Shown here piece after piece: positions 6,282-55,477 of a stretch of DNA of 64,000 nucleotides. Source of the DNA: Harmothoe impar (Eukaryota > Annelida > Polychaeta > Phyllodocida > Polynoidae); assembly GCA_947462335.1 (NCBI GenBank), contig OX381707.1, positions 63,527,773 through 63,591,772 of the forward strand, in the 5' to 3' direction. The position numbers and the translations under genes are program-made. The first letter of the stretch is position 1, and each line of letters begins with the position of its first letter. The notes below the pieces were generated by a model, which searched no databases, had not been told where the DNA came from, and worked only from the letters and a program-made list of their open reading frames with translations.

Positions 6282-7138
6282 TCAGTCCTGTAAGATGAGA
6301 GGAAATTGACCATTCAGATAACCTTTTAACCTGGCTTTAAAACAGTTCTTCTCTTCTGTGTTTCTCAGGTGAGGGGGGAGTGCGTTCCATGTGTCAATGG
6401 ATTTGTAGGAAGGATTTTTGGAGTGTCTAGTCAGTCTAGGATTTAGCTGTTTTATCAGTGGGCCATCAGCGGCTCTAGTGTTCCTATGTTGAATTAGGTC
6501 AATTCCATCTCGTTTGACTAATCTATAACATAAATTGCTCTGCAAGTATTTTAGCCTAACATCAACCTTGGTGATTTTAACTCTTGAGTGAATCACATCT
6601 ACATGGACCTCTCTGGGTACATAAATTTTCAGACAAATTCGAATTGCAATATTCTGTAGTACTTGTAATGAGTTGAAATCAAGTTGGGTTAGCCCTGAAA
6701 GGAAGATTAGACTAGAGTCAATTTGTGGTAAAATCATTGATTTCAGTACTGTGATAGAGGCATTCTGGGTGAGCAGTGGTCGCAATTGTCTCAGGAGCCA
6801 GATTTTAGAGTTCATTGCTTTGTTGGTCTCCACTAGCTGCTCTTGGAAAGTGAGTGTCTTATCCAGAATTATGCCAAGATACTTGTACGATTTAACATTC
6901 TCTAGGGCAGCACGTTCTAACATTATTTCAGGAAAGTGATAGTTAGTCCTTTCAGAAAAGTACAGTGTTTTGGTTTTACCTACATTTATGGTGAGACAGT
7001 TGAAATCACACCATGCTTTTATCAGCGACATATCAGATTGTAGTGTTTGGCCAACAGTCCCTGGGTCTTGGTGACTAAATGTTATGACCGTATCGTCAGC
7101 ATACAGTGTGACTTTTGACTGGGTTTGAACATAGTGTA
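6282..7138 (-). pseudogene. LINE-A reverse transcriptase, C-terminal part (YADD box, thumb)
   Basis: From the insertion edge the minus strand reads a palm segment with the catalytic YADD box (LYADDTVITF, near 7070-7100). It continues as INVGKTKTLYF, YKYLGIILD, then ILPQIDSSL and the C-terminal helical region typical of jockey/CR1/L2 RTs, and ends near 6282 with a stop. An internal Met at 7031 is not the real start. The reading frame is intact from the MITE edge to the stop. Together with 7997-9014 it forms one RT in a single frame once the MITE is ignored, so this is one gene broken by insertion rather than two genes. It is a pseudogene because of that insertion and the missing endonuclease. 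Confidence 0.88.
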
Positions 7139-7140
7139 TA

Positions 7141-7994
7141 TCGTCGCCTCAGTATACAAAGGTTGTAAGTGAAAAAATTAGATTTTTTTTTTATTCTTTA
7201 ATATTTTTCTTTATCCAATAAATTTTTGACAATTTTTGGAATTTTTCAAAAATGACCCTTTTCTGGGAGGTTATAGCTCAGTATACAAAGGTTGTAACTA
7301 AGAAAATGATCTTTTTCTCAGTATACAAAGGTCGTAAGTGATGTGGAAATTCTAACCCCAATGCATTTTGTCATTAAAATAACTTATTTTGTGTGTTTTT
7401 TCTAACCATTTTATATAATTCCTATTGTATAGGTACATTTAGGATAAAATTTTTACAAAATATGCTTACTTTGAAGTGTAAAGGGGGTGAATTTAATGGG
7501 AAAATTACTAAAATTGCTTATTTTAGCCGAAATTTCACTGTTGCTAGGCAACATCAAGTTGTGTATAATTCTTTTAGGTGATATAAGCAACTAAAAATAT
7601 AAACGATTCATTTAGTGACCATAAGGCTTGAATTAATCAACTATTTGGGCACTTATTTACAGTTTTGAACTGAGGAAATTACTTACAACCTTTGTATTCT
7701 GAATAGATGGACAAAAATATGTATGAAATTCAGTATACAAAGGTCGTAAGTGACCTAATTTTCCCCTTTTTTTCCTAATTTTTGCCATATTAACTAAGGA
7801 ATTAGGTAGGATATTTTAGTATCATTCATGTAATTTGTTTTTAGTTATTTGTGGTTATATGTAGGATGATTTCTGGGGAAATATACCACGTTTTTAAAAA
7901 GTTACAGCCTAAAGATCACATTGATTTTTCTTATTTTGCTCATATCTCAAAACATGAATTTTCCACTTACGACCTTTGTATACTGAGGCGACGA
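7141..7994. mobile_element. 854-bp MITE with 30-bp TIRs inside LINE-A RT, TA target duplication
   Basis: Left terminus TCGTCGCCTCAGTATACAAA (continuing GGTTGTAAGTG) and right terminus are inverted copies over about 30 bp with a single clear mismatch. Both ends are flanked by TA (7139-7140 and 7995-7996), the target signature of Tc1/mariner-type transposition; ATAT flanking is equally readable because the target is palindromic. The terminal motif CAGTATACAAAGGT(T/C)GTAA recurs internally at about 7272, 7319 and 7731 and as a diverged inverted copy near 7680-7700, giving several subterminal copies. No transposase is encoded; the 62-codon ORF at 7393-7581 has no motif. Insertion lies between the FVND-I box and YADD of the host RT. 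Confidence 0.92.
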
Positions 7995-7996
7995 TA

Positions 7997-9014
7997 TCAT
8001 TTACAAACAATATGAAGAGTAGAGGGCCCAGTATAGATCCCTGTGGTACACCAAACTTAGTGTCCTGCCATTCAGAGAGTTTATCGTTGACAAAAGTTCT
8101 TTGCTGCCTGTTTCTTAAATAGTTCTCAAACCAGTGTATTACAGAGTCATGAAGGCCAAAGTTTGCTAACTTGTGTACTAATTTAGGATGGTTGATGGTA
8201 TCAAATGCTTTTTTGAAGTCTATGAATATAGCACCAAGCGTGTTTTCGGAGTTTAAGGCTAAGTTTATGTCATGAATGATTTTGAATACAGTGTCATGAG
8301 TACATCTACCCTTTCTGAACCCATTCTGTGAGTCTGCCAAAAGGTTGTTTTCCTCAATGTGGCTAACAATTTGATAGTGTACTAGCCGCTCCATTATTTT
8401 GCCCGGTATGGGTAAGAGTGAGATAGGCCTCAAGTCACCAATTGATTTGGGTTTTACTGTTTTAGGGATAGGTACTACTAGAGCTTTTTTCCAGGCAGCA
8501 GGGAAGACGCCGGTAGCCAATGAGAGGTTCAGAAGGTGACAGAGATGTACATTTAAGGCCAGCAATCCGTCCTTTAGCAGCCGGGAGGAGAGTGCAAGCC
8601 CTGATGATTTGTAAATGTTTATTTTGTGAATTTCTTTGTCTAGTTTGTCTTGTCTAATGTTAGAGAATCTCATTTGCTCCCCCTGGTAAATTGGGGATTG
8701 GGGAGGCATGTAGTTTGGATCAACCGTGATTTTATGAGCTAGGTTTGCCCCCACATTGGCAAAAAAGGAATTTATCTTGTCTGGCAGATCATTATCAGGT
8801 ATGGTGACACCGTCGTCATTTTGCAATTTCAATTTTATATTTCTTGTCTTCTTAGGGGCTAGACTGTTAATTAATTTCCAGAGTTTGGCAGGATCATCCT
8901 TACACTCTTCAACCTTATTTGAGTAATATTTGCTTTGTAGCCTTTGAAGAATTATGTTTGGTGTAGGCCCAAGATAACTGAATATAAATCCCTTTATTTC
9001 TGGGCCTATTTGTA
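7997..9014 (-). pseudogene. LINE-A reverse transcriptase, N-terminal part
   Basis: The minus strand reads a linker segment (KYYSNKVEECKDDPAKLWKL), then RT motifs in order: PIPK, DLRPISLLPIPGKIMERL, NGFRKGRCTHDTVF, FIDFKKAFDTINH (first catalytic Asp), FGVPQGSILGPLLF and FVNDI, where the MITE begins. The frame is open upstream of the first listed in-frame start to about 9014, so no true start codon is present and the protein is 5'-truncated. Motif spacing is normal for CR1/L2/jockey-type RT. I cannot see the endonuclease domain. Codons beyond the MITE edge (about 8000 downward) are MITE sequence, not RT. Confidence 0.88.
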
Positions 9015-12159: not shown

Positions 12160-15078
12160 CTATCTCTGTAAGCGTAATTTGGCAAGGTGTAGGGCTCGAA
12201 TATGGGTTAGGGCCTTTGACCTGAAGAGGGATTTATTCGCGGCTAGGCGACATGAGACATTTAGGTTATTCCAGAGGTCTATGCCCCTGTATAAGGGACT
12301 TCTCCTGTAGGTTAACGTGTTACTGGGGGGGTATTGCAAGAGACCAGTGTTTGTGGATCTGGTGACTCTTCCACACGCGGGGGGATTAGAGTATGCAAGA
12401 CCTAGCTCTGCAGGGGACTGGTTAGTACCATTCAGGTATTTATATAATAGTAACAGCAGCTGCAGATCAAAACGAACACTTAGGTAATCTATTTTGGTGT
12501 CTGTGTGTAAATTAAGTACATGGTAGCGCATTTGCAGTCGCAGACTGACGCGTAAACAGCGGTTTTGCATCAGCTGCAGCCGCTTGTGCTGTGACTGAAT
12601 AATACCGTTGTGAAGATAACCACAATATTCAAGTACTGGTAGGATGGTCTGCTTATATACAAGTATTGCAGTAGCTGTGGACATTCTCCTTCCCATTTGA
12701 CCTAACATTTTACATCTGTTTGCAGCTGAGCTTACATTTTTACTAATGGTATACTCCATGGACAGGTTATTATCTATTATGATGCCAAGGTATTCATACT
12801 TATTACAGACACTCAACAATGTGTTTCCCATTCTAATGTTGGGTTTGTAACCATCATTTCTTTTCACATTAAACACTTCGACCTTGGTTTTTTCAGTGTT
12901 GATGCAGAGACCACTTTTGCTAAACCAGTTATATGCATTTGTGGCGTCAATTTGCAGCTTTCTCTCCGCAGCTTCAGCGTTTTGGGCGCTTATAAAGAAG
13001 ACGACATCGTCTGCATACATGATAATTTCGCAATATTCTAGGACATCAGGTAGGGCATTTACAAAACAAATAAATAGGAGGGGGCCCAAGATGGACCCCT
13101 GGGGGACGCCGAATTTTACAGGTAGTAGGGTAGATGAGGAGCCATTACAGACAACTCGTTGGGTTCTATTGCCTAAGTATGCGAATAACCAGTCAGTGAG
13201 CATTGGGGGTAGATCTAGATATTTCATGCGGCTAATTAATTCAAAATGGTGGATGCTATCAAAAGCCTTCCGCACGTCCAGGAAACAGGCCATCAGGGTT
13301 TCATCTCTGTCTTTGGATTGGTAGACCCGATTGACAAACTTGAACACAGCATCATTTGTTCCCCTGGACGCGCGGAAGCCATACTGTGAACTATGCAATT
13401 TTTTACTGTTTTCTAAGTTAGTGTAGATTTTTTCATATACAATACGCTCCATAATTTTGCTGGGGACCGGTAGGAGTGAGATAGGGCGCCAGTTCCCTAT
13501 ATGCCTCAAGTCACCGGATTTAGGCAGCGGTACTACTTTTGCAGATGCCCATTTCTGTGGGAATGCAACGGTTTGTAGGCTGAGTGTGATGATGGATAGT
13601 AATTCTGGTGCAAGCACCAATAGGGCATCCTTCATCACCGAGGTTTGTATATTGTCTATGCCACTGGATTTGTGGACTTCAATAGATTTCACAAGCTTTA
13701 GTACACTTTCATAAGAGACATTAGTTACAGCATCCTCACTGAAGGTGTGAGTCTTACTGGAGGGCTTATTACATTCAGAGACCTTAGGGGCGTCCCCTAG
13801 AGTGTCAAAGAGCTTTTCCCCTATTCCCGAGAAGAAAGCATTAATGTACCCTGGTACATCGCTGCCCTTGACCTCCTGACCATGCTTATGGTGATCTAAT
13901 ACAATATCCGGCTTGTTATCACCGGTTTTGCCAAGTAGGAGGTTTAATTCACGCCAGAATTTAGTAGGATGGGAAGCCAAGTCGGTTAGTTTTTTATTGA
14001 AGTAATTTTCTTCAGATATGCGCGTTTTAAGGTTAATGTCCCTACGGACCTGCTGTGCACATTCTAGGAGATCAGGGTTATGCTCCCCGTCTCTAATGTA
14101 TTCCAGGATGTACTGGTCCCGTTCATGAATTAACTCAAATATGTCCCTAGTCATCCAGGGTTTGTTCCGGTCCTTAAAGGACATGTCCTTGATGGGACAA
14201 TGGGTGTCTAGGTATTCAGTTATGTGTGACTGTAATATGGACCACCTAACATCAACATCATTACTTGCATAGAAAGTTGATAAGTCAATGTGTAGCAGGT
14301 GATCCATGAAATCCGCTTGACTATAATTTCTATAAGAGCGGCCCCTCATCTTTACCATGGTATAGACCTCTTTTGGCTTCTTTTTTATGGCATAGGTGGG
14401 GACATGGTCACTCACAAACAGTGGGAGCGTACCATTATACATGACAATATCGCAATCAGTCGATATGAGATCTATACATGTTCCTCCGTTGCCATTAGGG
14501 TGGGGACGGGTTACATGGTAGATCTGATCATGTAGATTTAAGTCGTTCATGGCCTTGGTGTAGGATTTTGTTTTAGGATCATTGGGCTGGAAAAGGTCTA
14601 TGTTGATGTCACCTATTAGCCAGCGTTCTCGCCCCTCCAGTATTGGGTCCTGACAGATTTCTTTGATGGACTCAATGCACTTGATGTAGCTCCCACTAGG
14701 TGGGCGATACACATGGATGAAGGTGGTGAGACGGTGCTTATCTTTAGTAAAATTTACAACAATAGATTCTATGTCCTCATTGGAACGCTTCAGGGGAGTG
14801 AGTAAGCTACAGAAGGGAGCCATACTATTACATATGTAGATAAGGAGGCCTCCACCGGTTTTATTCACTACCCTGTCATAGCGGAAGAATTGGTAACCAG
14901 CTATGTGTAGTTTATTATCCGGGAAGCCTTCAACTAACCAACTTTCACTAATCGCAAGTACATCAAATAGTTTCACAAGTTTGGATAATTCTCCAAACTT
15001 AAGATTTTGACTACGTATATTATAGTGGCCTATTTTTAGGCCTTTTAGTAGGACAAAGTCCTCATATGTGGTGGTCAT
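12160..15078 (-). CDS. LINE-B ORF2: APE-type endonuclease-reverse transcriptase, 972 aa, intact
   Basis: ORF2 polyprotein for target-primed reverse transcription: it nicks target DNA and copies the element RNA. Residues about 13-235 are an APE-like endonuclease: N in GHYNIRS, catalytic E in ISESWL, GDINIDL near 156-162 and the SDH box at 223-225. A linker of about 270 residues follows. RT covers about 512-760: VVPLPKSGDLRHIGNWRPIS, SQYGFRASRGTNDAVF, catalytic Asp in FLDVRKAFDSIHH (near 600), FGVPQGSILGPLLF (656-669), and YADD at 688-691. The thumb and C-terminal region run to residue 972. The start is a true ATG at 15078 (MTTTYEDF). There is no internal stop or frameshift, and all catalytic residues I can check are present, so this may be a recent, potentially active copy. 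An antisense 146-codon ORF at 12884-13324 is a shadow. Confidence 0.95.
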   Translation of the reverse strand: MTTTYEDFVLLKGLKIGHYNIRSQNLKFGELSKLVKLFDVLAISESWLVEGFPDNKLHIAGYQFFRYDRVVNKTGGGLLIYICNSMAPFCSLLTPLKRSNEDIESIVVNFTKDKHRLTTFIHVYRPPSGSYIKCIESIKEICQDPILEGRERWLIGDINIDLFQPNDPKTKSYTKAMNDLNLHDQIYHVTRPHPNGNGGTCIDLISTDCDIVMYNGTLPLFVSDHVPTYAIKKKPKEVYTMVKMRGRSYRNYSQADFMDHLLHIDLSTFYASNDVDVRWSILQSHITEYLDTHCPIKDMSFKDRNKPWMTRDIFELIHERDQYILEYIRDGEHNPDLLECAQQVRRDINLKTRISEENYFNKKLTDLASHPTKFWRELNLLLGKTGDNKPDIVLDHHKHGQEVKGSDVPGYINAFFSGIGEKLFDTLGDAPKVSECNKPSSKTHTFSEDAVTNVSYESVLKLVKSIEVHKSSGIDNIQTSVMKDALLVLAPELLSIITLSLQTVAFPQKWASAKVVPLPKSGDLRHIGNWRPISLLPVPSKIMERIVYEKIYTNLENSKKLHSSQYGFRASRGTNDAVFKFVNRVYQSKDRDETLMACFLDVRKAFDSIHHFELISRMKYLDLPPMLTDWLFAYLGNRTQRVVCNGSSSTLLPVKFGVPQGSILGPLLFICFVNALPDVLEYCEIIMYADDVVFFISAQNAEAAERKLQIDATNAYNWFSKSGLCINTEKTKVEVFNVKRNDGYKPNIRMGNTLLSVCNKYEYLGIIIDNNLSMEYTISKNVSSAANRCKMLGQMGRRMSTATAILVYKQTILPVLEYCGYLHNGIIQSQHKRLQLMQNRCLRVSLRLQMRYHVLNLHTDTKIDYLSVRFDLQLLLLLYKYLNGTNQSPAELGLAYSNPPACGRVTRSTNTGLLQYPPSNTLTYRRSPLYRGIDLWNNLNVSCRLAANKSLFRSKALTHIRALHLAKLRLQR

Positions 15079-28947: not shown

Positions 28948-29145
28948 TTTGAGTTTGAGTTTAGATTTTTAATTGGCACTAATAAATCGTATACAATACA
29001 GACGTTTTTCATATTATGCCAGTTGATAACAACTATCAGTTCAGATCAAGAAGCGTCCATGGTAGTTATGAATGAATGACAAGATATATTGCATCAAACA
29101 AAGTCCATCAGTCAAGTATTTATGACTGGTAAGTGAGATGTGTAA

Positions 29146-29940
29146 TTAGATTATAATGCGCTCCAGGGCTCTTAGATCAGCCGGCCTCAGGCTTGACACA
29201 AACAGGTCAATATCCGGACTTCTTTGTTGCGCCGCGTCCAATCGATCCCACAGTCTGGAGCCTCTGTATTCCGGGCTGTTCAAGTAGCTTGTTTTGTACG
29301 GTCTTTGTAGTTTGAACTTCAACTTATTGTTGTTGCGCAGTACTCTGGTGGGTTGCAGTAGATTGTCGTCGTGTTTTGACCTGCGGTACATCAACCTCAA
29401 GAGCTGCTTGTTTCTTCTTGGTTGTAGCATCTCCAGGGCCGAATCTTGATGTAGCTCAGCTACATTTGCTTCCCGCGCATCGTGGATGTTGTTGATGATT
29501 CTAAGACAGTCATTTTGGATCGTCTGTAGTTTGGTTACCGCCCATGCCGGTCCACTATCCAGGATTAGTGGACAATATTCTAAGCATGGCAGTACCATTG
29601 TTTTGTATATCATCAGGGTAGTTCCTTTGTCCGTTTCCTTGCGCGTATGCCAGAGCTGTGTGTATTTGCTCTTGACCGTGCCAATCACTTTCTTCAAATG
29701 AGGGCCGAACGACAAATGGCGGTCAATCAACACCCCCAGGTAGTTGAATGAGTGTACTACTTCTAGCAGCCTGCCATTCCTAGTTATTGGTACCCGTCCA
29801 GTGTCTATTGGTGCAGTGACTGGATATGACCATAGTACCTTGGTCTTGTCCTCATTTACTGTTAACTGATTATTGGCACTCCAAGTAGACACGTTGTTGG
29901 TGTCCTCCTGTAGGATGGCTTGGACTCTCTCTGTCCGGTA
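29146..29940 (-). pseudogene. LINE-C reverse transcriptase remnant (thumb and C-terminus)
   Basis: The minus strand reads VQAILQEDTNN then STWSANNQLTVNEDKTKVLW, NYLGVLIDRHLSF, MVLPCLEYC, QTIQNDCLRI and SPEYRGSRLWDRL, the post-palm part of a CR1/L2/jockey-type RT. By alignment with LINE-B ORF2 the sequence begins at about residue 708 of that protein. Everything from the linker through YADD (about 400 codons, 1.2 kb) is missing. The join to the endonuclease frame lies at about 29935-29945, out of frame, so a fusion protein would terminate soon after the join. Nonfunctional as a polymerase. Confidence 0.88.
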
Positions 29941-31075
29941 CTCTGAAGGTTTTAATCGGGTGATGTACGTCCAGATATTCTACGGAGGTTGACAGTAGTT
30001 TGGTGTAGGCTTCGCTTGTAGTTGCTGGGTCGTCCAAGGCACCCCAGTCCGTCTCTCTCATATGTAGCTGCAGACTGTCCTTGTTGTATAGTTTATACGA
30101 GCGCCCAGTAATTGTCTTCTTCCTTTTGTTGCACGGCATCTGCTTCTTTACTATATAAACCGGCATGTGGTCACTGGGGCTGTCATCTATTATGCCGTTG
30201 TCTGAGATCTTGTAGCAATTGGTATACACATGATCCAGGATAGATGCACCCCTCGGGTGGTAGTGGGTGTATCCAGTTTGTAGGTAGTGTAGCTTCGACT
30301 TTCTTAAGAAGGACTGCATGTAGCGGTATTTTACAGTGTGATGGTAAAGCGTGTTTACGTTTAAATCTCCGAGGATCCATACTTCCTTAGTACCAACCAA
30401 CGGTAGTTGTAGCATCTCTAGCAGCTTCTTGTAGGCAGTTTTGGTGTTTCCACATGGTGGCTTGTATGCTGTTATTATTACTCGGTACTTTTGGCCAGGA
30501 GTCTTCGTTATTAAGCCAATAGTTTCCAGGTCTTTGGACATGTGGGTCAATTCTGGGCAGGGTGTGGTGTACGGCGCGTGTCAGTTGTGGACGTAGCATC
30601 CTACTCCTCCCCCTTTGTGACCTCTCAAATAAGGCCTATCATGTCTATAAAAAGTCATGTCGGGCAGCTTTACATCACTAGTGCGAGTGTCACGTCTCAG
30701 CCAGGTCTCGGTGATGCATAGGTAATCACTGCCCTTGTATAGCTTGCGTAGCTGTTTGACTTTACCCTTCAGGCTATGAGTATTCAGTGTCATAAGGACT
30801 AGGCCTTTGGCTGACGATGCCGAGCTGAACGATCGGTACCTCATATTTGAAGCCACCGGTGTCACCGTAGTGGCTTCAGGCACAATTGTATAGCGGTCTA
30901 AGTCGAGTGATCTGATAATGTGGCTTAAGTCCCAGGCGCTCGTGGTTAGAGGGCTGTGGGATAGGTGTGGATGTCGCCTCACTAGCCAGTCTCCAGACAG
31001 AGTGGTTGTCAGACAACCATGGTTGCAGCACACAAACAACAATAGGGTCGCAAATTCCATATGCAAAAATAACAT
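29935..31075 (-). pseudogene. LINE-C endonuclease domain with one in-frame stop
   Basis: Starts at ATG 31075. An N-terminal hydrophobic stretch and a Ser/Thr-rich leader come first. The APE-like endonuclease then reads LMTLNTHSLKGK, catalytic Glu in CITETWL, GHKGGGVGCYVHN, an in-frame TGA at about 30581-30583, ETIGL, ILGDLNVNTL, HPRGASILDHVYT and SPSDHMPVY. The two open pieces (30581-31075 and 29870-30550) share one frame, so the only lesion inside the domain is that TGA, compatible with CGA to TGA decay. After VPDRESP the frame meets the RT deletion and stops at 29870. This is the endonuclease half of ORF2, and the overlapping 65-70 codon ORFs are shadows. Confidence 0.88.
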
Positions 31076-32680
31076 TGCCTATTTATTCGTGAACCAAAGT
31101 CTATCCTTTTTAATAAATCCTCATGTGTATTCTGTCAATCTTAAGACTATACAACCTGATTGGTGCTCCCTTATAGTGTCAGGCACTCTCTTTTTTATAT
31201 ATGTATATCGGTTGATTAACAGGTGTCCTTAAATATTATAAGTATTGTAGACAACTCCGACTGGGGTTGATACCAGCAGTGGTTTACTACCGGTAGTGTT
31301 GCTTATTACTCTGTCTTCCCTCTGTCAGAACACTAGCTAATCAGTAGTGCAGTTTATAAAGCAACAAGCTATTTGGCTTCAACCTTATGGTGGGCTCGTC
31401 GTGTCCTAATACTCATATAAGCAAGTGGCACTCCTGTGTAGTTTCAGGTGCTCTTCAGTATATAGTTTATACGGTTGTGACAATGTTAAATGTCTAGAGG
31501 TGCAATGAAACTATCTGTATGTGTATGCATAATCACAGCCCCATGACTTAGATGCTAGATGATTAATTGGCACTCCTGGAGTATCCAGGTGCTCACATTT
31601 TAAAGGCTGAGTTTTATAGATAGGTGTGTCCAACGCTGACACTGTCCTGCGCTGACACTGTCCTGTAGTGCCGTGCTAATAAGTGTACGTATATGTTATC
31701 AGGATCTCGACCAAAGTTTATCTGATAGCGTACGATAGCATATGATAGCGTATGCGTATGATAGCGTATGCAAATAGTTTATACAATACCGCACTATGAT
31801 ACTGCCCAATGTCCACTGTCCTGTGGTGTAGTGCTAATAAGTGTACGTGTATGCTATCAGGCTCTTGTCCAAAGTTTATATGATAGCGTACGATAGCGTA
31901 CGTAAATAGTTTATACAATACCACACTATGATATCAGGTGTACCTAGCGTATATAATCAAGGCAAAGAGTGGCTCCCAGATGCGTGTTCATCTCACAGTC
32001 CACACCCCGAGATCCCACATCGATAAACAACCAATGTGGAGTCCCATGATGTCGCGGTTATGTTGTTTGCTTGCTTGCTTGTTTCCTTGTTAGTTGCATG
32101 GAGCCCGTGCTGGTACAGGGCATGTTACATGGGTCAACCGTAGTTGATGATGTATGCTTCAGTAGTAACTTTGTAAAGTGTAACATAATAATGCCGGTGT
32201 GGAGCCAAATAAGTAACTTTAGTCACTGTAGTGACGGAGGTCATTTGTGCCACATGACACCCATGGGTGCACCACATGAGTAACTTGGAAAGCATCACAG
32301 TAACTTTGGGGTGAGACAAGTCAATAAGTACGAGGTAAATGCTGTTCAGCATAACTATGTACAATGGACGGGTCGGTGTACATATCAAAGTGTGGTGGTG
32401 TGCTTCGGCAGTAATGTTGGGGCAGTGTTATGTACTGGTCACCTACGTTGGTTGTTGAGGGGTGACCCATTTGGCATATTGGCTGGTTTATTACGCCCTG
32501 GGTTGCTCTCCGGTTGAAGAGTGGCTTCTATAAAATAACCGAAGCCACAATCCATTGAGCAACCAGTGTGGATGTTCAGTGTGACAGTGCATGCGTCGAT
32601 AAAATAACCAAGACATGCTCTTCACACCTCACATACATATTAAACCTGTTCAGATAAAATAACCCTCACAAGTTCAATAT
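31076..32680 (-). repeat. LINE-C inter-ORF spacer with tandem repeats
   Basis: 1.6 kb between the SGNH-like ORF and the endonuclease ORF without a recognisable domain. A 158-bp tandem duplication occupies 31657-31814 and 31815-31935 (shared ACTGTCCTGT, TGCTAATAAGTGTACGT, CAAAGTTTAT, TGATAGCGTACGATAGC and AATAGTTTATACAATACC). The first unit carries extra internal GATAGCGTATG repeats. Nearer the SGNH ORF, GATAAAATAACC-type phrases recur at about 32527, 32597 and 32654. Phrases like GGCACTCCTG...CAGGTGCTC recur at about 31427 and 31570. LINE-B has a comparable repeat-bearing stretch at the same place relative to its ORF2. Confidence 0.75.
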
Positions 32681-33328
32681 TTACCAGTTAGCACTGTCTT
32701 TCAGAAGACTGGCAGCCACTAGGTCGGCACACCTTTTCTGGGCCTTGGGTGTAGGGAGATGTCCTGTAAGTAGTTCTTCATATCTGTGGTAGTGGCCTTT
32801 CTTTGGGTGGTATCGGTGGCATATCCTGTCTGTGAATGGGGTATGAATCCCGAACCTCGAGTTTAAGTCCAACAGTGACTGGTTTATTTTAACAATAAAC
32901 TGCTCAGTCAGGTCCTGATGGGCATGGCGGTCGGCGTCAGAGCCAACCATGGCATTTAGGTTGGCACTGTACAGTGTACCAGTAATTACCTTGACTCGGG
33001 GGTTAATGAGAAAGGCATTCTCCACTAGAGTTTTATAGTAGTCAGCTATCAACTTGGGTGTGTATTCAGGGTGGATGTTCCTAAGGCACACAGATGGAGT
33101 ATCCTGCGGTTTGTAATCCAGAAGCTCAAATAGCCCGGCTAGTATGACCACTGCGTTCGGCGTGTGGGCATGATTATTGGTGTTGACTATGTCACTTACG
33201 GTCACTGAAATGTCTTCCAAACGCCCTCTCTCCACTGCCACCACATTTCTTAGAGCCGGGCAAAGGGGACTCAAATGACTATACAGCCCCTGTACCCTGT
33301 TATCTCCTACAACGTCCAGTATGTACAT
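32681..33328 (-). CDS. LINE-C SGNH/GDSL-esterase-like ORF, probably catalytically inactive
   Basis: 215 codons from ATG 33328, 69 nt after the ORF1 stop and in a different frame. The layout matches the SGNH hydrolase fold seen in ORF1 esterase modules of CR1-type LINEs: an opening strand with block I (VVGDNRVQGL), a middle AVVILAGLFELLDY block, VKVITGTL, a helix with a FIVKINQSLLDLN pattern, and a terminal YEELLTGHLPTPKAQKRCADLV block. In active relatives block I is GDS and the last block is D-G-x-H-P. Here Ser reads as Asn, Asp as Thr, and the His position as Leu, so the catalytic triad seems absent. It may be a structural or lipid/RNA-binding module, or simply decayed. Family assignment is from pattern recognition and is moderate. 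Confidence 0.6.
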   Translation of the reverse strand: MYILDVVGDNRVQGLYSHLSPLCPALRNVVAVERGRLEDISVTVSDIVNTNNHAHTPNAVVILAGLFELLDYKPQDTPSVCLRNIHPEYTPKLIADYYKTLVENAFLINPRVKVITGTLYSANLNAMVGSDADRHAHQDLTEQFIVKINQSLLDLNSRFGIHTPFTDRICHRYHPKKGHYHRYEELLTGHLPTPKAQKRCADLVAASLLKDSANW

Positions 33329-33396: not shown

Positions 33397-35421
33397 TTAC
33401 GGCGATCTAAGTGGGTCAGGTCGACCGGGGTCATTGATATCTAGGGCACGGGCGATATCTAGGGCACGGACGCCGCATCGCTCTCCAACCACAGGTTCGG
33501 TTGGTTTTCCCGCCTCTGTCTTTGCCGCGGTGCCCTCCTGTAGCTTGCTTCTTAGATCCTGTAAGATGGTGCCAAGTGCATTATTGCCGTCCCAAGATTC
33601 ATTCTGGTATGCTTCATCGTTGTATGGCGCACTCCCTCCCCAGAACGCGTCTCTCTCCGCAAGAATTATGGGACCTTCGGTGTCTAATAAAGCAGCACGT
33701 TCATTCTGGTTGTAGTTGAACTTTAGGTGTTGCACCTTGTACATCATGTCATATTTAATGTCTTTCCATTTGCGGCCACCTGCACATTCATCACCGGCTT
33801 CCCGGGCCTTGATCCCGTCTGTAGATTCTAGTACTTTATCGGCGCAAACTAGATTTCCTGTCTCAGTGCATTTGAGCCACTGCAGCAGCTGTTCGGCGCA
33901 GTGAAAAGTGTGGTCGTGGAATTTCAGATCTATGGGGTAAAGTGTGCTAAAAACACTTTTGGATCCACAGAAAGTCAGACCAGAGGCTGTGTCCTGCTGG
34001 TACAACGGCATTAGTCCTATTTTCTTATCTCTACGGCTACGGTCATCGGCTAGCGTAGCGTCTGGTATTTCAGGTGAGATAGGCCTAATCTGGGGTTGGT
34101 CTCCTCTAAGGACAGGTGTAGTTGGAGGTGCCTCCAGGGGGACACGGGGATGTCTGTTAGGGACCGATAGAGTGGCGGGTCTATATTGGTCAGGGATTCT
34201 GTATGGCTGCCTCCCGTCATACAGGGTATTATTGATTTCTATGTCGGTGCCTCTTAGTGAGACATTCACACCTTCTGATCTGCAGTGTTTAACTATTTGT
34301 CTAAGGACATACTTAACTCTTCTTGTGTCCGGGTCTTCATCTGCGTTAATGTAGACGTCTTTATACTTGGTGTTAGTATCTGAACCCAGCGAGGATTTGG
34401 CCTGCATGCATTTGTCGCGCATCCAGCTCTCCCTGAAGCTCACTACTAGTGGAGGGACACTGCCAGGTTTTGGGTATCTCCTATTCAGCTGTGTGGTGTA
34501 GATCAGATCACTCTTTTGGGTGGGAAGTTTCATGAAGTGGAGTAGCTCAAGGACAACTTCGGTCGGGTCATCCTGCTCGGTCAAGTTTAATCCTTCAATT
34601 AGTACAGTTTGACGTCTAGGTGGTCGATATTTGTCTGGGTGTTCCCTAACTGTGTGCTTGGTTGCTGCAGGGGGTGTGTACAATTGTTGACATTTGTCGT
34701 CTAGTCCCTTTTTAAGATTGTCCATGTCGGTTTTTACCTGGGCTTTATGATCGTTAAGTAGGGACTTCAAACCTGCAACATCCCTCTTGGTTGAGTTTAT
34801 GGCCTCCTGGTGGGTGGTTTCCATAACTCCCATTCTTTTACTAAGGTGCTTATGAGAGCTTGATACAACACTGTGGATCTTGTTCAATTTTTTATCAAAA
34901 GAAACACCTAGGCTGTTTATAAGACTCAACATGAAGCCCTTAGTAACTGCACCCTCTTCTGTACATTCCTCAGGCGTGTCGTATCCAGTAGCCTCATCTA
35001 CATACTCCCACGATAGGTCTAGGCCCTCCTCAGTATCAACATCACCAATGCTCTCATCATGGCTGTCATCTTCAAATTCAGAGAGAGTACATCCTTTAAG
35101 GTTCTTACCAATATACGTGGCTGGTTCTGGTAGGTGTTGCAGTCTTGAAGAGTTACCCTTGGCTTTCTTGTTAGTAGGCTTGTGGTGAGCATTTATATTC
35201 CCTGTAGGTGGAGAGCTGCTGGCTACCCTTTTCCTAGCTGTAGAAGTCGGGGCCTTGTATATCATCTGTTCACTATGAGTCTTCTTTGGACGTCCTGGCT
35301 TCTTTTGTTTGTCGTGGGTGTTTACATCTCCATGGTAATTGAAGGACCTGGGATCATGTGTAGACTTTGTCAGATTCAATCTGGCAGATGAACGCCTTGA
35401 GTGGTCTTGTGCAGTAGCCAT
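33397..35421 (-). CDS. LINE-C ORF1: coiled coil, RRM-like domain and C-terminal NADAR domain
   Basis: 674 codons from ATG 35421 (MATAQDHSRRS) to TAA 33397-33399, no internal stop. A basic N-terminus includes an AT-hook-like KKPGRPKK near residue 40. An acidic stretch lies near 115-155, and a coiled coil near 165-250 has heptad-like spacing around VMETTHQEAINSTKRDVAGL. About 265-400 resembles LINE ORF1 RRM plus C-terminal domain (TVLIEGLNL, VYINADEDPDTRRVKYVLRQ, EINNTLYDGRQPY). Residues about 484-627 (nt 33541-33972) match NADAR: FCGSKSVFSTLYP, the FHCAEQLLQWLK helix, KWKDIKYDMMYKV, LKFNYNQNERAALLDT, ILAERDAFWGG and GNNALGTILQDLRSKL. All hallmark motifs are present. NADAR proteins act on ADP-ribose linkages (riboflavin-pathway N-glycosidase; removal of ADP-ribose from guanine in DarT-linked modules); activity here is inferred only. 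Its position upstream of SGNH and EN-RT ORFs on the same strand supports a retrotransposon ORF1 rather than a host gene. Confidence 0.87.
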   Translation of the reverse strand: MATAQDHSRRSSARLNLTKSTHDPRSFNYHGDVNTHDKQKKPGRPKKTHSEQMIYKAPTSTARKRVASSSPPTGNINAHHKPTNKKAKGNSSRLQHLPEPATYIGKNLKGCTLSEFEDDSHDESIGDVDTEEGLDLSWEYVDEATGYDTPEECTEEGAVTKGFMLSLINSLGVSFDKKLNKIHSVVSSSHKHLSKRMGVMETTHQEAINSTKRDVAGLKSLLNDHKAQVKTDMDNLKKGLDDKCQQLYTPPAATKHTVREHPDKYRPPRRQTVLIEGLNLTEQDDPTEVVLELLHFMKLPTQKSDLIYTTQLNRRYPKPGSVPPLVVSFRESWMRDKCMQAKSSLGSDTNTKYKDVYINADEDPDTRRVKYVLRQIVKHCRSEGVNVSLRGTDIEINNTLYDGRQPYRIPDQYRPATLSVPNRHPRVPLEAPPTTPVLRGDQPQIRPISPEIPDATLADDRSRRDKKIGLMPLYQQDTASGLTFCGSKSVFSTLYPIDLKFHDHTFHCAEQLLQWLKCTETGNLVCADKVLESTDGIKAREAGDECAGGRKWKDIKYDMMYKVQHLKFNYNQNERAALLDTEGPIILAERDAFWGGSAPYNDEAYQNESWDGNNALGTILQDLRSKLQEGTAAKTEAGKPTEPVVGERCGVRALDIARALDINDPGRPDPLRSP

Positions 35422-50055: not shown

Positions 50056-51421
50056 AAATGATGCAGGTCTGAGGACCAGGGGAAGAAAATATTTTTTTCG
50101 CAATAATACCTTATCCTTTTACATGGGTATACTAGAGGTGTTAGGGTATCATGCCATGGATTTAATTCTTCTTAAATATGAAGATGGTTGCCATGGCAAC
50201 CATCCAAACAAGGGTTGTGGTGGCTACTGGCGTCTATATGACAAGCTAGGCAAAATTTCTGAATAAGCCTATTTTTTTTTTAAAAGCAACAATGGCCTGT
50301 CTACTTATATTGCAATATGAGAGTATATCAATACCTTTGAAGTAAGATAAAATATGCAAGCTAAACCCTGCTAACGAAAACAGGATAAGGGTATGAAAAT
50401 TGAATTTTCTTTTTGTTTTTGTTTTTCCTGTTATATAATTTTGCAGTTTTATTGTATCTACCCTAATTAGCCTTTCTTGATTATTCCTTGCCTAAGTAAT
50501 AGCAGAGACATTTTCCTACATGTAGGCATGTTACATGATTCTCAGGAGATGCATAAGTTCCTGCTACAGTGATATTAAAGTGCTCATTTCACCTTGTCAT
50601 ATAGACGCCATCATGTCATATAGACGCCACTATGTCATATAGACGCCACTTTCCCACTCCCCTACTCACTGCTTGAAGGCGGGAGGACCACTGTATTCGG
50701 TAAATAACTAGTGTTTTAGTGCATAGGTAGGATTCATAAGTTGAAAAGAATGAAAAATTATAAGAATTGAAGGTATAGACCTATATACATCACCTTGTCA
50801 TTTAGACATCATCATGTCATATAGACGCCCAGCTTGTCATATAGACACCTTTGTGTCAGATATACCGCAATACTGTATTTTTCTTGAATAAAACACTGAT
50901 GGGAAGGTGATATTTCACATGTGGGTAATGGATTTGTGGTGTCATACAATGGACGACTTGAAAATAATCAAATACAATAAGGGTGTGAAATATGATCTTG
51001 AAATGTTACTGTGTCATATAGACACCATTGTGTCATATAGACGCCTTTTCCTTCTAATATACTATTTTTCTTTTGACTACAAAATTGTCAGGACCATGAT
51101 ATCTTACATGTGGATAAAGTTTTAGTGGGGTCATGTGATGTATGACCTAGAAATAATTAAATACAATATGGGTGGGGAATATAATCCTAAAATGTAACTG
51201 TGTCATATAGACGTCATTGTGTCATATAGACGCCATTTCTATATCAATAGCAGATTTCTCTTGACCATGATACTCTTAGGATCGGGATATTTCACATGTG
51301 GGTACTGTTTCAGTAGGGCCATGTTATATATGCCTTTGAAAGGATAAGATGCAAGAAGGGTAGGAAATATAGCCCTGTAAAGTTACTCTGTCATATAGAC
51401 GCCATTGTGTCATATAGACGC
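50055..51421. mobile_element. 1.37-kb repeat-rich insertion in gag
   Basis: AT-rich DNA splitting GC-rich gag between the SR codons (50050-50055) and QAVPDL (51422 on). A motif TGTCATATAGACGCC, usually paired at 24-bp spacing, recurs at about 50595, 50795, 51010, 51198 and 51389, that is every 190-220 bp. An inverted copy (GGCGTCTATATGACA) lies at about 50230. The last copy ends at the right junction. A possible 3-bp target duplication ACG (50052-50054 / 51418-51420) is seen, but the junction is ambiguous because the motif itself ends in ACGCC. Class unknown; non-autonomous DNA transposon with subterminal repeats is the best guess. Confidence 0.8.
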
Positions 51422-52243
51422 CAAGCAGTCCCAGACCTGCATCATTTTGGTGAGACACAGTCCATAGCTCAACTCCGGACAAGCGGTCACGCCGACGGGT
51501 TCGTCGAACAACAGCTCGCCCGTGAGATCATGAGGATGGGTGCCACAGATGGTAAGACCAGTTTGATTACAGACCCATTTGTGCGCAGACCCATAGTGAA
51601 GCCATACATGTACCTAGACCGCCCCGGCCTCCAGACCCTCAAGCAGAGGCTGGATGTCCGTTCCGACATGAAAGAACTCGAATACATATTCTGTATGTTA
51701 ACAATCCTCACCGACGACAGGGCGAAGGCCCAGATCGACCCGGACAGGGACCATATCATAGCCCATTTCCATGACGTCATGACCGAGATCATGGCGGGCA
51801 GATCATGGCCATCCGTTCTCAACTGGAGTCAGTCCATATGGGACCAGGTCGAGTCTGAAAAGTGCTCATGGCAAGACAGCAGATGGCGCGTCCGCCTCGC
51901 CATGACCGCCCTCGACGGGAGGGGGGCAGGGTCAGCTTCCCGCCCTCCCGGCAAGTTCAATCCCTCCCAGATCACCGTGCAGCGCAATCCCGGCGAGGTT
52001 ACCTGCCCGGACTTCAATTCCCAAGCTGGCTGCAAAAACAGACACCATCACGCAGAAGGCCAGATCACCTTTGTTCACGCCTGCTGCCACTGTGAGACGC
52101 AGGGGCGGAGGAATTTCCACTCGTATCAAGGCTGTCAGAACAAGAGCCGCCCGCCCCACGGCGGTCCGGCAGGTAACAGCGCCCACAACAATCGATCTCC
52201 GCCAGCCGCCAACAGCGCCCCGCCGACAAAAAACGCTCAGTAG
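51422..52243 (+). pseudogene. Ngaro-like gag, 3' part with Cys/His zinc motif
   Basis: Continues the gag frame after the insertion: QAVPDLHHFGETQS, an alpha-helical capsid-like region (YIFCMLTILTDDRAK), WSQSIWDQVE, then a C-terminal Cys/His cluster beginning CPDFNSQAGCKNRHHH and continuing HACCHCETQGRRNFHSYQGC. Cys/His clusters of this type are typical of DIRS/Ngaro gag C-termini and presumably bind nucleic acid. It ends with TAG at 52241-52243, 7 nt after a slippery heptamer. Codons 51407-51421 of the open frame belong to the insertion. This 3' part alone is intact. Confidence 0.82.
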
Positions 52244-52280
52244 GCGGGTCAGCGGGAAACGATAGTGCTGACACGCCCGC
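52228..52280 (+). promoter_or_regulatory. Candidate -1 ribosomal frameshift site (gag to RT)
   Basis: Slippery heptamer A AAA AAC at 52228-52234 is phased with gag codons (ACA AAA AAC). A one-base backward slip continues CGC TCA GTA, which is exactly the RT frame and is open from there to the RT ORF. The gag stop lies two codons downstream. After a 9-nt spacer, 52244-52253 (GCGGGTCAGC) can pair with 52267-52272 plus 52277-52280: GTCAGC/GCTGAC and GCGG/CCGC, a 10-bp stem with a 4-nt bulge and 13-nt loop. All three canonical parts of a -1 frameshift signal are present. Confidence 0.82.
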
Positions 52281-52377
52281 AAAGGGCCACACTCTGGTAA
52301 ACATTGACTGTATAAACCCTGTCTGTGATTCAAATTGTGATACAAACCGTGATGATTCTATAACATGTGATGTAAAC

Positions 52378-55300
52378 GTGACTGACAACCGAAATTCCCC
52401 AGTGTCAACAACAAAGATGGCGGACCATGGGCGCCGCCATCTTGAATCCACCACGTCTCGCGCCAACTCTCGCGGCTCGCGAGATCACGCCAACGAGATC
52501 CAACATGGCGGTTCTTCACCGAAACAACACCGCACCGCCACGCAGCATCACGAATTCGCCCCAGTTCAACAGGATTCGGCAAATGAAGATGCACCGATTA
52601 ATCTGCAAGCAACGGATATGGATCCTCGCCATCCATCCAACCACGATGGAGTTAACGACACGGCCCAGGACGCCACAACACGCCGCATCGTAAACGCCGC
52701 AGGTAATAATGACCCGCCATTTGCAAAAATTAGACGCATGTGTAAAACCGACACGTTTGACTATGACATAGACGTGTCCCCCGACGCATTCAAAGACTAC
52801 CGCAGGCAGCACTGGCCGTCCCCCAACCCAGACATGCCCGACGAGTTAGCCAAGATCTATGACGCAGTAGCAGCATCGGGCATCCCCAACGTGCTGGGCG
52901 CCCGTATGACACTCCCAACCCTTCTCAACCTTGACGCATGGCACGCGTACACGGGTGACAACATTGACTTTCAGCAACTTGTGCAGTTTGTAGAGTTTGG
53001 CTTTCCATTGGGCTACATGGGCCCCGTGTCAGACTCCCTTGACACTGACAACCACCCAAGTGCTAATAAGTACCCAGACCAAATTGACATGTTCATTGAC
53101 AAAGAAATTGACCTCGGGGGACTGGTGGGTCCGTTTGACGCTCCCCCATTCTCCCCGTGGTGCCACATCTCCCCCCTGATGTCCCGGGAGAAAAAGGCAT
53201 CCAGTGACAGACGCGTCATAAGTGACATGACATTCCCCGACGACACGTCGATTAACGCCTATATCTTTAAAAACACTGTTCTGGGCCTCGAAAGAGACCA
53301 TGAATTACCGACTGTAGACAGCCTGGTTGACGACCTCATGGTCATAGGGACTGGCGCACATCTCTCCACACTCGATGTCTCAAGGGCATTTAAAAATTTC
53401 AAATCATGTCCAATTGATTGGCCTCTATTGGCAGTAAAATGGGATAATAAATTCTACTCTGACGTCACCATGCCATTCGGAAGTAGAGGAAGTAGCTGCC
53501 ACATGCAGAGGGTAGCAATGTTCATAGTTGACATACTCCATCGTAAAGGTGTGAAGGGAAAAATGTACCTTGACGATCTGATATTGGTCTCTCCATCTAG
53601 GGAAAAGGCCGAGCACGACTACCAGGTGGCCAGAAACCTCCTACAGGAACTAGGCCTACCAGAGGCCGTGGAGAAGACCCAGCCCCCATCCCAGGTCGTA
53701 GAGTGGCTGGGAATCATGGTGGATGCTCGACTGCAGACTCTCACACTATCTCCAACCAAGATACAGGAAGCTCTCGAACAGGTAAACTTCTGTCTCACAA
53801 GGAGATCACTCACAAAGAAACAATTATGCAGCTTACTGGGCAAGCTACTCCACGTGGCGAAGTGTATCCGCCCAGCCAGGTTGTTCGTATCCAAACTGTT
53901 AGACGCCCTACGGGGCATGAGGGGCAACTTCATACACGTCAATGTTCAAATGAAGCAGGACTTAAGTTGGTTCATAGAATTCGCTAGCGACTGGAATGGG
54001 GTTGCATACATCCCAGACTCCACCCCCTCCAGAGACATATATGTAGACGCGTGCTTGACCGGAGTCGGGGCACATGACACAAAAATGGCATACGCCGGAC
54101 AGGTGGCCCCCATCGAGGACCCAGTAGTTAATGTGTCCGAGATCGAGGCCGCAAACATAGCTATAGCACTGCATACCATGGTGTCTCAGGAAGATAGAGG
54201 ATCCCACATCCGGGTCCACTGTGACAATGAGGCGTCGGTACATGTATTGCAATCAGGCAGGGGGCAAAACCACCAGATTCTAGAGGCCGCCAGGGCCGTA
54301 TGGATGGTAGAAGCCATATGTGACGTCCACTTCTCATTTAGACATGTCCCCGGCGTCAAAAATGACATAGCTGACGCCTTAAGCCGGGCACATATAAACT
54401 CACATTATTTAAACCTAGCACATAAATATGTTAGAGACTTTGACATGCAACTTGTAGACCCGTGCCTGCATATTCTTGACGCCATGTCTCCTCCCATCCT
54501 TTGCAGATCGGGCGCTAGACTATCTGCAACAGAGGGCATGCCAGCGTCAGGGGCGCTCCAGGGCACAGGGCACCTTCAAGAACCATCGGTCGGCAACGGG
54601 CACATACTTAGCCTATTGCCGGCACACTGGTATGGACCACCTCAGACCAGCCCATCAGCAGATCTGTACTTATCTAGAGTACCTCGCGGTGTGGATAGAC
54701 TCACCGGCTACCATAGGCAATCACGTCAGCCAGATAAGGACTTACCTCGAGCTGACCGGACAGCCCACAGCGGAAGTGTCACACCCCAAAGTCAGGAGGG
54801 CTGTGGAAGCCATGGAAAGAGACATCATAGTGAAGTCCAGAAAGAAGCCCCCTGTCCCCATGGAGATCCTCAGGGGAGCCCTTCACTTCATACAAGGGAC
54901 TCAGGCAGACACAGTGGTGAGGTTCGCACTACTGGTCATATACTACGGGGCCCTGAGACAGTCAGAGATAGCCCCGGTGTCAACAGGCAAGTTCTCACCT
55001 ACATCCCACCCCACAAGGAAGGACATGTCCCTCTCACCAGACAATCTCATCCTGACAATCAGGAACGCCAAGAATCTCCAAAGGGCAGACCAGCAGCGAG
55101 TGGTGATCATGGAAGTAGCAGACCACCCTCTGGTATGCCCCATATGGCACGCACACAGAATGCTCGAGGAGGCCCCCACGATACACCCAGAGGAGCCCCT
55201 CCTCCAGTTCCCAGACACAAGAACAGTGATGCCCACGTCCCACATAAAAAACAAGTGGGACGCAGCGATGGCGCATCTTGGCGTGCCAAAGACAAAGTAC

Positions 55301-55440
55301 AGCCTACACAGCCTAAAGAAGTCGGCGGCTACGGAAGCATACAATGGAGGGCTCCCAGAGCTAGAGGTACAGGCATTCGGGGGCTGGAGGTCGGAAGCCC
55401 ACAGACAATACATTGTCGCCGCCGGCAACAAAGCCAATAA
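52378..55440 (+). CDS. Ngaro-like reverse transcriptase-RNase H (frame open to 55440)
   Basis: The RT frame is open from 52228 through 55440. The listed 52378 start is only the first GTG, and expression by -1 frameshift from gag is more likely. The first ~120 residues are low complexity. RT: WCHISPLMSREKKASSDRRVI, STLDVSRAFKNF (catalytic Asp), MPFGSRGSSCHMQR and YLDD near residue 396. RNase H: YVDACLTGVGA (near 560), EIEAANIAIAL, HCDNEASVHVL (near 615) and HVPGVKNDIADALSR (near 660), with the acidic residues retained. Recognisable sequence ends near 54400. The remaining ~340 codons are an open, Pro/Arg/Ser-rich frame that overlaps the recombinase in another phase and matches no domain. Copies RNA and removes the RNA strand to yield the DNA circle intermediate expected for the group. 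Confidence 0.92.
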   Translation: MTDNRNSPVSTTKMADHGRRHLESTTSRANSRGSRDHANEIQHGGSSPKQHRTATQHHEFAPVQQDSANEDAPINLQATDMDPRHPSNHDGVNDTAQDATTRRIVNAAGNNDPPFAKIRRMCKTDTFDYDIDVSPDAFKDYRRQHWPSPNPDMPDELAKIYDAVAASGIPNVLGARMTLPTLLNLDAWHAYTGDNIDFQQLVQFVEFGFPLGYMGPVSDSLDTDNHPSANKYPDQIDMFIDKEIDLGGLVGPFDAPPFSPWCHISPLMSREKKASSDRRVISDMTFPDDTSINAYIFKNTVLGLERDHELPTVDSLVDDLMVIGTGAHLSTLDVSRAFKNFKSCPIDWPLLAVKWDNKFYSDVTMPFGSRGSSCHMQRVAMFIVDILHRKGVKGKMYLDDLILVSPSREKAEHDYQVARNLLQELGLPEAVEKTQPPSQVVEWLGIMVDARLQTLTLSPTKIQEALEQVNFCLTRRSLTKKQLCSLLGKLLHVAKCIRPARLFVSKLLDALRGMRGNFIHVNVQMKQDLSWFIEFASDWNGVAYIPDSTPSRDIYVDACLTGVGAHDTKMAYAGQVAPIEDPVVNVSEIEAANIAIALHTMVSQEDRGSHIRVHCDNEASVHVLQSGRGQNHQILEAARAVWMVEAICDVHFSFRHVPGVKNDIADALSRAHINSHYLNLAHKYVRDFDMQLVDPCLHILDAMSPPILCRSGARLSATEGMPASGALQGTGHLQEPSVGNGHILSLLPAHWYGPPQTSPSADLYLSRVPRGVDRLTGYHRQSRQPDKDLPRADRTAHSGSVTPQSQEGCGSHGKRHHSEVQKEAPCPHGDPQGSPSLHTRDSGRHSGEVRTTGHILRGPETVRDSPGVNRQVLTYIPPHKEGHVPLTRQSHPDNQERQESPKGRPAASGDHGSSRPPSGMPHMARTQNARGGPHDTPRGAPPPVPRHKNSDAHVPHKKQVGRSDGASWRAKDKVQPTQPKEVGGYGSIQWRAPRARGTGIRGLEVGSPQTIHCRRRQQSQ

Positions 55441-55477
55441 GATCCTCCGCAAGGCCATCATGCCCAAAGACAGCTAG
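54458..55477 (+). CDS. Tyrosine recombinase (YR) of the Ngaro-like element
   Basis: Integrase of the element, joining the circular DNA copy to the target. The N-terminal SAM-like domain includes RAQGTFKNHRSATGTYLAYC, HQQICTYLEYLA and ATIGNHVSQIRTYL. The catalytic domain has Arg I in IYYGALRQSEIAP, a beta-hairpin region (LTIRNAKNLQRADQ), the second box HSLKKSAATEAY, and FGGWRSEAHRQYI carrying the Trp/His box and nucleophilic Tyr. In most YRs the second box is H-x-x-R; here it is H-S-L-K. No ATG precedes the N-terminal domain (the first possible start is TTG 54476), so production must involve splicing, frameshift or a non-ATG start. It overlaps the open RT frame by almost 1 kb in the +1 phase. 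The antisense ORF 54943-55467 is a shadow. Confidence 0.9.
   Translation, partial: TRACIFLTPCLLPSFADRALDYLQQRACQRQGRSRAQGTFKNHRSATGTYLAYCRHTGMDHLRPAHQQICTYLEYLAVWIDSPATIGNHVSQIRTYLELTGQPTAEVSHPKVRRAVEAMERDIIVKSRKKPPVPMEILRGALHFIQGTQADTVVRFALLVIYYGALRQSEIAPVSTGKFSPTSHPTRKDMSLSPDNLILTIRNAKNLQRADQQRVVIMEVADHPLVCPIWHAHRMLEEAPTIHPEEPLLQFPDTRTVMPTSHIKNKWDAAMAHLGVPKTKYSLHSLKKSAATEAYNGGLPELEVQAFGGWRSEAHRQYIVAAGNKANKILRKAIMPKDS
54485..54506 (+). promoter_or_regulatory. Candidate 3' splice site before the recombinase frame
   Basis: A pyrimidine-rich run TGTCTCCTCCCATCCTTTGCAG ends in AG at 54505-54506, just inside the open recombinase frame. That frame opens only at 54458 (TAG at 54455-54457) and has no ATG before its conserved N-terminal region, so splicing is one way to reach it. 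A donor site was not identified. Confidence 0.45.

Follow-up and report, generated by a model that had tools for sequence, protein, structure and literature searches.

NADAR domains at the C-terminus of LINE ORF1 proteins in the polychaete Harmothoe impar

A 64,000-nucleotide stretch of contig OX381707.1 of Harmothoe impar (assembly GCA_947462335.1, positions 63,527,773 to 63,591,772; hereafter the window) carries on its reverse strand a copy of a non-LTR retrotransposon (LTR, long terminal repeat), or long interspersed nuclear element (LINE), whose first open reading frame (ORF1) ends in a NADAR domain. This copy has an intact ORF1 and a broken ORF2 and is a member of a large group of LINEs with an ORF1-NADAR protein. 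Its parts, in window coordinates, are as follows.

33397..35421, reverse strand: ORF1, 674 amino acids, with a charged N-terminus, a coiled-coil-like stretch, an RRM/CTD-like stretch (RNA recognition motif/C-terminal domain) and a C-terminal NADAR domain
34672..34941, reverse strand: coiled-coil-like stretch, ORF1 residues ~161-250, suggested by weak coiled-coil family and PDB matches
34138..34638, reverse strand: RRM/CTD-like stretch, ORF1 residues 262-428, suggested by a single-sequence model with weak PDB matches
33538..33960, reverse strand: NADAR domain, ORF1 residues 488-628, identified by Pfam, fold comparison and alignments
33892-33894, 33871-33873 and 33655-33657, reverse strand: codons of E510, K517 and E589 in the NADAR domain
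32681..33328, reverse strand: SGNH-like ORF (candidate family), 215 amino acids, directly after ORF1
31079..32680, reverse strand: 1.6 kb spacer from the SGNH-like ORF to ORF2, without a long same-strand ORF
29873..31078, reverse strand: first part of ORF2 (APE-type endonuclease), with a stop at 30581-30583
29149..29979, reverse strand: last part of ORF2, behind the place of the reverse transcriptase (RT) core, which this copy has lost by deletion
28951..28967, reverse strand: element 3′ end, carrying a short tail of AAACTC repeats

An earlier note, written by a model from the letters, had placed a same-strand endonuclease-RT ORF downstream of ORF1; this ORF is present, open in relatives though broken here. 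The window-copy ORF2 lacks the segment that comprises residues 379-769 in an intact relative, and because the frame has both a stop and a missing part, the copy is unable to move by itself.

The NADAR domain and its neighbours in the 5′ half

The NADAR domain of ORF1 scored 76.6 bits against a Pfam cut-off of 35.1, and a model of the domain, compared with known structures, has the YbiA fold. The profile search and structural overlay that the earlier note had proposed thus agree with its central claim, a LINE ORF1 carrying NADAR, as do the copies found across the genome (see below). Protein searches gave no match when the query was either full-length ORF1 or its NADAR part by itself, whereas an alignment of relatives used as the query did match; viral contigs, when scanned, yielded no relative.

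In the structure 8bau the ADP-ribose is surrounded by E43, K50 and E125, and the equivalent residues E88, K95 and D171 matter in the E. coli C7 NADAR (PMC11543638; here and below, papers are cited from excerpts). Alignments make E510 and K517 of ORF1 the counterparts of E43 and K50. Both are invariant in 29/29 ORF1s, together with W552, and W594, G595 and G596 are invariant in the 28 ORF1s with letters there. The last-strand glutamate (E125 of 8bau) is a mark of the YbiA family; in the alignments of the window type the stretch is two residues shorter, the glutamate position itself falls in the deletion, and E589 stands nearby. E589 follows the last strand and adjoins the E125 position, out of register by one; it is kept in all 28 closer relatives with letters there, and a divergent copy, L045, has isoleucine. 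Two other LINE types of this genome, L058 and L066, retain an EAS motif before the tryptophan. Judged from these residues, NADAR activity is therefore likely in the L058 and L066 types, whereas catalysis in the window type, with its shortened stretch, its glutamate out of register and the isoleucine of L045, is uncertain.

The earlier note had also described a coiled coil and an RRM-like segment, which we retain as candidate stretches. Coiled-coil family and PDB matches were weak; the best PDB matches of the single-sequence model of the RRM/CTD-like stretch were to human LINE-1 ORF1p, likewise weak, while a sequence profile of this part run against the PDB gave no LINE ORF1p match. Window-type ORF1s and that of L066 have an RRM-like stretch in common (30% over 178 amino acids, E 2e-12). 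The ORF1 protein is presumed to bind RNA.

The SGNH-like ORF is next after ORF1 in 30/30 loci, on the same strand as the note had it, but its assignment to SGNH found no such agreement: the presumed catalytic serine (GDx position of the first motif) is present in one of the 30 ORFs, namely that of L011, L013 has lysine at this position, and a PDB profile search returned nothing relevant. The second ORF is nevertheless well conserved despite the missing serine in 29/30, and its SGNH fold is putative.

Distribution and modular history in the genome

The genome searched comprised 1.51 Gb in 736 contigs. With 66 of 3299 first-look candidates scored, ORF1 matched at least 68 places at 33-100% identity, and 60 of these 68 span most of NADAR (query residues 490 to 619 within the match), so that the ORF1-NADAR joint, for which further copies were to be sought, recurs across many ORF1 lineages. 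The eight shorter places comprise four halves of split frames and four matches ending at residues 491, 548, 557 and 578. Among the 30 loci read, 29 have an ORF1 frame of more than 480 codons with the NADAR start. NADAR is the best conserved part of ORF1 (mean pairwise identity 64%, versus 60% for the RRM-like stretch and 49% for whole ORF1) and has the lowest median pN (proportion of nonsynonymous differences) among four regions, 0.239. In the dN/dS-type comparison that the earlier note had suggested, pN was below pS (the synonymous counterpart) in 378/378 pairs and the two pairs whose pS was short of saturation each gave an omega of 0.084, among copies picked by match score, a choice that over-represents intact ones.

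Twelve stretches behind ORF1 were read (L031-L034, L038-L045). Nine contain an open ORF2 of 1022-1127 codons (L031, L033, L034, L038, L040-L044); in L032 and L039 it is in pieces, and in L045 the frame stays open over 994 codons, until the stretch ends. Four intact ORF2s that were scanned gave RVT_1 matches (E 6e-41 to 2e-38) and endonuclease family matches, those of L031 to the endonuclease families lying at or below their cut-offs. The endonuclease and RT of these intact relatives make the element an APE-type LINE. ORF2 is a candidate member of the CR1/L2 group (Jockey superfamily), as suggested by the motifs GVPQGSVLGPLLF and C-terminal YRGSRLWDRL and by the short tandem 3′ tail; as regards the Tx1 clade, the L1-type RT motif seen in an alignment is not shared. 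No DarT transferase domain was present in the ORFs scanned in the window and intact relatives, which therefore do not form a DarTG1-type module.

A genome search with the L031 ORF2 scored 45 of 22383 candidates; among these best 45, 12 full-length ORF2s are at least 94% alike, of which six lie behind a full ORF1-NADAR, three behind a partial one and three have none within 4.8 kb. To find copies lacking NADAR, the upstream DNA of eight full-length ORF2s for which no ORF1 had been listed was checked. L047 retains the NADAR end, and the other seven (L046, L048, L049, L050-L053) gave no ORF1 match. Because homology among L046, L048 and L049, whose ORF2s are 96-100% alike, breaks at differing points, their missing ORF1 follows the pattern of 5′ truncation. 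The 76% ORF2 class (L050-L053) may include versions without ORF1 or without NADAR.

Comparison of four elements, E3 (L003/L031), E6 (L006/L033), E7 (L007/L038) and E12 (L012/L034), showed ORF2s 95-98% alike, ORF1s only 46-53% and SGNH-like ORFs 54-65%; for E25 versus E26 the values are 94%, 57% and 62%. DNA identity of 92-98% starts ~60-400 bases ahead of the ORF2 frame. The clade E3, E6, E7 and E12 was rejected by ORF1 data (p-AU 4.7e-6) and a grouping of E12 with E9 and E10 by ORF2 data (p-AU 4.9e-91), the tested groups having been chosen after the first trees were seen; the ORF1 of E12 belongs with those of E9 and E10. Since the lineages compared are at or close to saturation at the synonymous sites of ORF1, a rate difference is excluded as the cause of the mismatch. 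The 5′ half (ORF1 and SGNH-like ORF) and 3′ half (ORF2) of the L003-L044 elements thus have different histories. Exchange of ORF1 between CR1 and L2 lineages, and so between ORF2 lineages as here, was proposed earlier by Metcalfe and Casane (PMC4120745), whose domains in Table 1 lack NADAR; by comparison the exchange here is recent, near-identical ORF2s carrying synonymously saturated modules, and makes the reticulate evolution of LINEs visible in fine detail.

A genome search with the Pfam NADAR profile scored 150 of 3484 candidates, all 150 above the cut-off, and the surrounding DNA was examined for 13 of these rows. They include four stand-alone NADAR genes (L054-L057) and eight copies of the L058-type LINE, whose short ORF1 ends in NADAR (Pfam E 1.8e-30 in L058). 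This ORF1 has 431 codons in L058, L062, L063 and L065 and 471 in L059, its front half is altered or broken in L060, L061 and L064, an endonuclease ORF lies behind it in 8/8, and the pooled NADAR pN/pS of the eight copies, picked by NADAR score, is 0.11. In the L066 LINE, ORF1 spans 978 codons or more and has NADAR at its end (E 1.1e-27), and ORF2 is 57% like the ORF of another LINE at 12160-15078 of the window. At least two further rows are of the window type by position, C10:22436174 (= L045) and C12:62129790. Three of the stand-alone genes, L055-L057, cluster within 27 kb (C21:30.058-30.084 Mb).

A tree built from 43 NADARs unites the window type and P0001, a protein from a different source with the same RRM-tail-NADAR joint, in one clade (support 100/100), whereas the host genes group with the annelid protein P0078 (98/94); given these separate clades, the window type was not copied recently from the host genes. 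The tree also groups L066 with the L058 type (96/87), an unsure join of two long branches.

Possible roles of an ORF1-borne NADAR

A reading that we favour, at somewhat less than even confidence, is that the NADAR domain removes ADP-ribose from guanines of element RNA or cDNA and so provides the ribonucleoprotein (RNP) with its own antidote. ORF1 protein would coat element RNA, and its NADAR would hydrolyse ADP-ribose from guanines of that RNA or of new cDNA; the marks would be placed by putative host guanine-specific ADP-ribosyltransferases of the pierisin/CARP-1 kind and would block reverse transcription unless erased. An eraser carried in the RNP is the simplest reading, although the steps from binding to protection are conjectural. 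Such reversal, also suggested in the earlier note, is in line with reports that NADARs act on guanosine-ADP-ribose of both DNA and RNA (PMC11543638, PMC11833690): NADARs were the sole hydrolase family among those tested to cleave guanosine-ADP-ribose of RNA, and the substrates of the NADARs tested were guanosine adducts rather than ADP-ribose on phosphate ends (PMC11833690). The latter counts against that note's other suggestion, that the domain helps the element reach PARP-active chromatin, for which no specific support was obtained. Butterflies and shellfish have guanine-specific DNA transferases, and CARP-1 has been proposed as an innate defence (PMC8053099). That dozens of ORF1 lineages within a single genome keep NADAR under strong constraint argues for a nucleic-acid substrate; these LINEs offer a direct test of whether animals ADP-ribosylate foreign nucleic acid. 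A wider arms race, in which the host marks LINE RNA or cDNA, several LINE types carry an ORF1-NADAR eraser and successful ORF2s time and again take up new ORF1-NADAR and SGNH-like modules, is conceivable but doubtful.

Removal of ADP-ribose by the window type is put in question by the deletion that the alignments place at the E125 counterpart and the isoleucine that L045 has for E589, by the low confidence with which the loop around E589 is modelled, and by the weakness of the structural match from which RNA binding of ORF1 is predicted. The deletion at the catalytic glutamate and the lack of conservation of E589 in L045 would suit a domain that binds ADP-ribose or ADP-ribosylated guanine uncleaved and thereby anchors the RNP on chromatin or nucleic acid that bears the mark; we consider this possible though rather unlikely, given that E589 is kept in the closer relatives and EAS in the L058 and L066 types. 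The altered third catalytic position could also mean that NADAR is kept for folding, oligomerisation or RNA binding with no ADP-ribose role. To this we assign a lower probability, as the invariant glutamate, lysine, tryptophans and glycines seem to exceed folding needs, two other types have the canonical glutamate motif, and changes of YbiA-type residues impair SNA-3 function, a folding effect not being excluded by its authors (PMC9303266).

A role on free N-glycosides, NAD-derived or of the riboflavin type, by which the domain would damp a diffusible host ADP-ribose signal, is improbable. E. coli YbiA does act on riboflavin intermediates, and diffusible signals have been proposed as targets of phage NADARs (PMC11543638, PMC9503650), but fusion behind an RRM-like stretch would argue for a nucleic-acid substrate, and for the NADARs of eukaryotic RNA viruses the proposed target is ADP-ribose on macromolecules (PMC9503650). 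An artefact, in which an exon of a host NADAR gene or one isolated capture happens to lie beside a LINE, might be suspected from the broken state of the window copy; against the many ORF1 places, the open ORF2 downstream in 9/12 copies and the separate clade of L054-L057, it is scarcely credible. One-off capture and a host gene exon, which the earlier note had named as outcomes fatal to its claim, are ruled out for the copies examined.

The ORF1-borne NADAR has parallels in other elements and proteins. Several Tx1 LINEs of the Pacific oyster, Crassostrea gigas, have divergent NADAR matches in their ORF1 (PMC12477816) and like the window type place a YbiA-type NADAR in the ORF1 of an invertebrate LINE; the passages on them lack the SGNH-like second ORF, family-wide constraint and 5′/3′ exchange seen here. 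The oyster elements are named Tx1 and the ORF2s here have presumed CR1/L2-group features, but the comparison is by description and the two may overlap. Searches of an open-access library showed no further report of NADAR in a LINE ORF1 among the titles and abstract openings listed. A Gypsy element of Ectocarpus is likewise a retroelement that acquired NADAR, though it is an LTR element with the domain in Pol rather than a non-LTR element with it in ORF1 (PMC12477816). RNA viruses of invertebrates, too, are parasitic elements that carry NADAR alongside their polymerase, with a proposed role against host ADP-ribosylation, in a virus polyprotein and not a LINE ORF1 (PMC9503650). DarT1-NADAR toxin-antitoxin systems and YbiA have the same fold, with two of their three catalytic residues present here (PMC11543638, PMC11125620); the window type differs in its fusion to LINE ORF1, its shorter catalytic loop and the absence of a linked transferase in the ORFs scanned. 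The role of NADAR in animals has been called unclear (PMC11125620). One exception is SNA-3, a nematode trans-splicing protein with three NADAR domains whose pocket residues are needed and whose NADAR chemistry is described as unknown; like the window type it is a eukaryotic NADAR protein tied to RNA processing, but it is a host gene product with a nuclear splicing role and no LINE (PMC9303266).

Element ends and other elements of the window

The AAACTC tail of the window copy recurs in five of nine other copies tested and is absent from E9, E10, E25 and E26. A candidate target-site duplication consists of a weak 10-base match between a site near 36737 and the 3′ flank; none was found in E3, E6, E7 and E14 when looked for.

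The LINE at 12160-15078 (reverse strand) has an open 972-codon endonuclease-RT ORF, for which L066 is the nearest relative found; the sole match to the L066 ORF1 in the window was ORF1 at 33397..35421. At 51407-55477 (forward strand), an RT ORF (RVT_1 E 3.5e-12) and an ORF like those of tyrosine recombinases (Phage_integrase E 1.9e-4, below the cut-off) overlap in an element that we take to be DIRS/Ngaro-like. Further LINE RT remnants lie at 6282-8832 (reverse strand) and 62888-63994 (forward strand).
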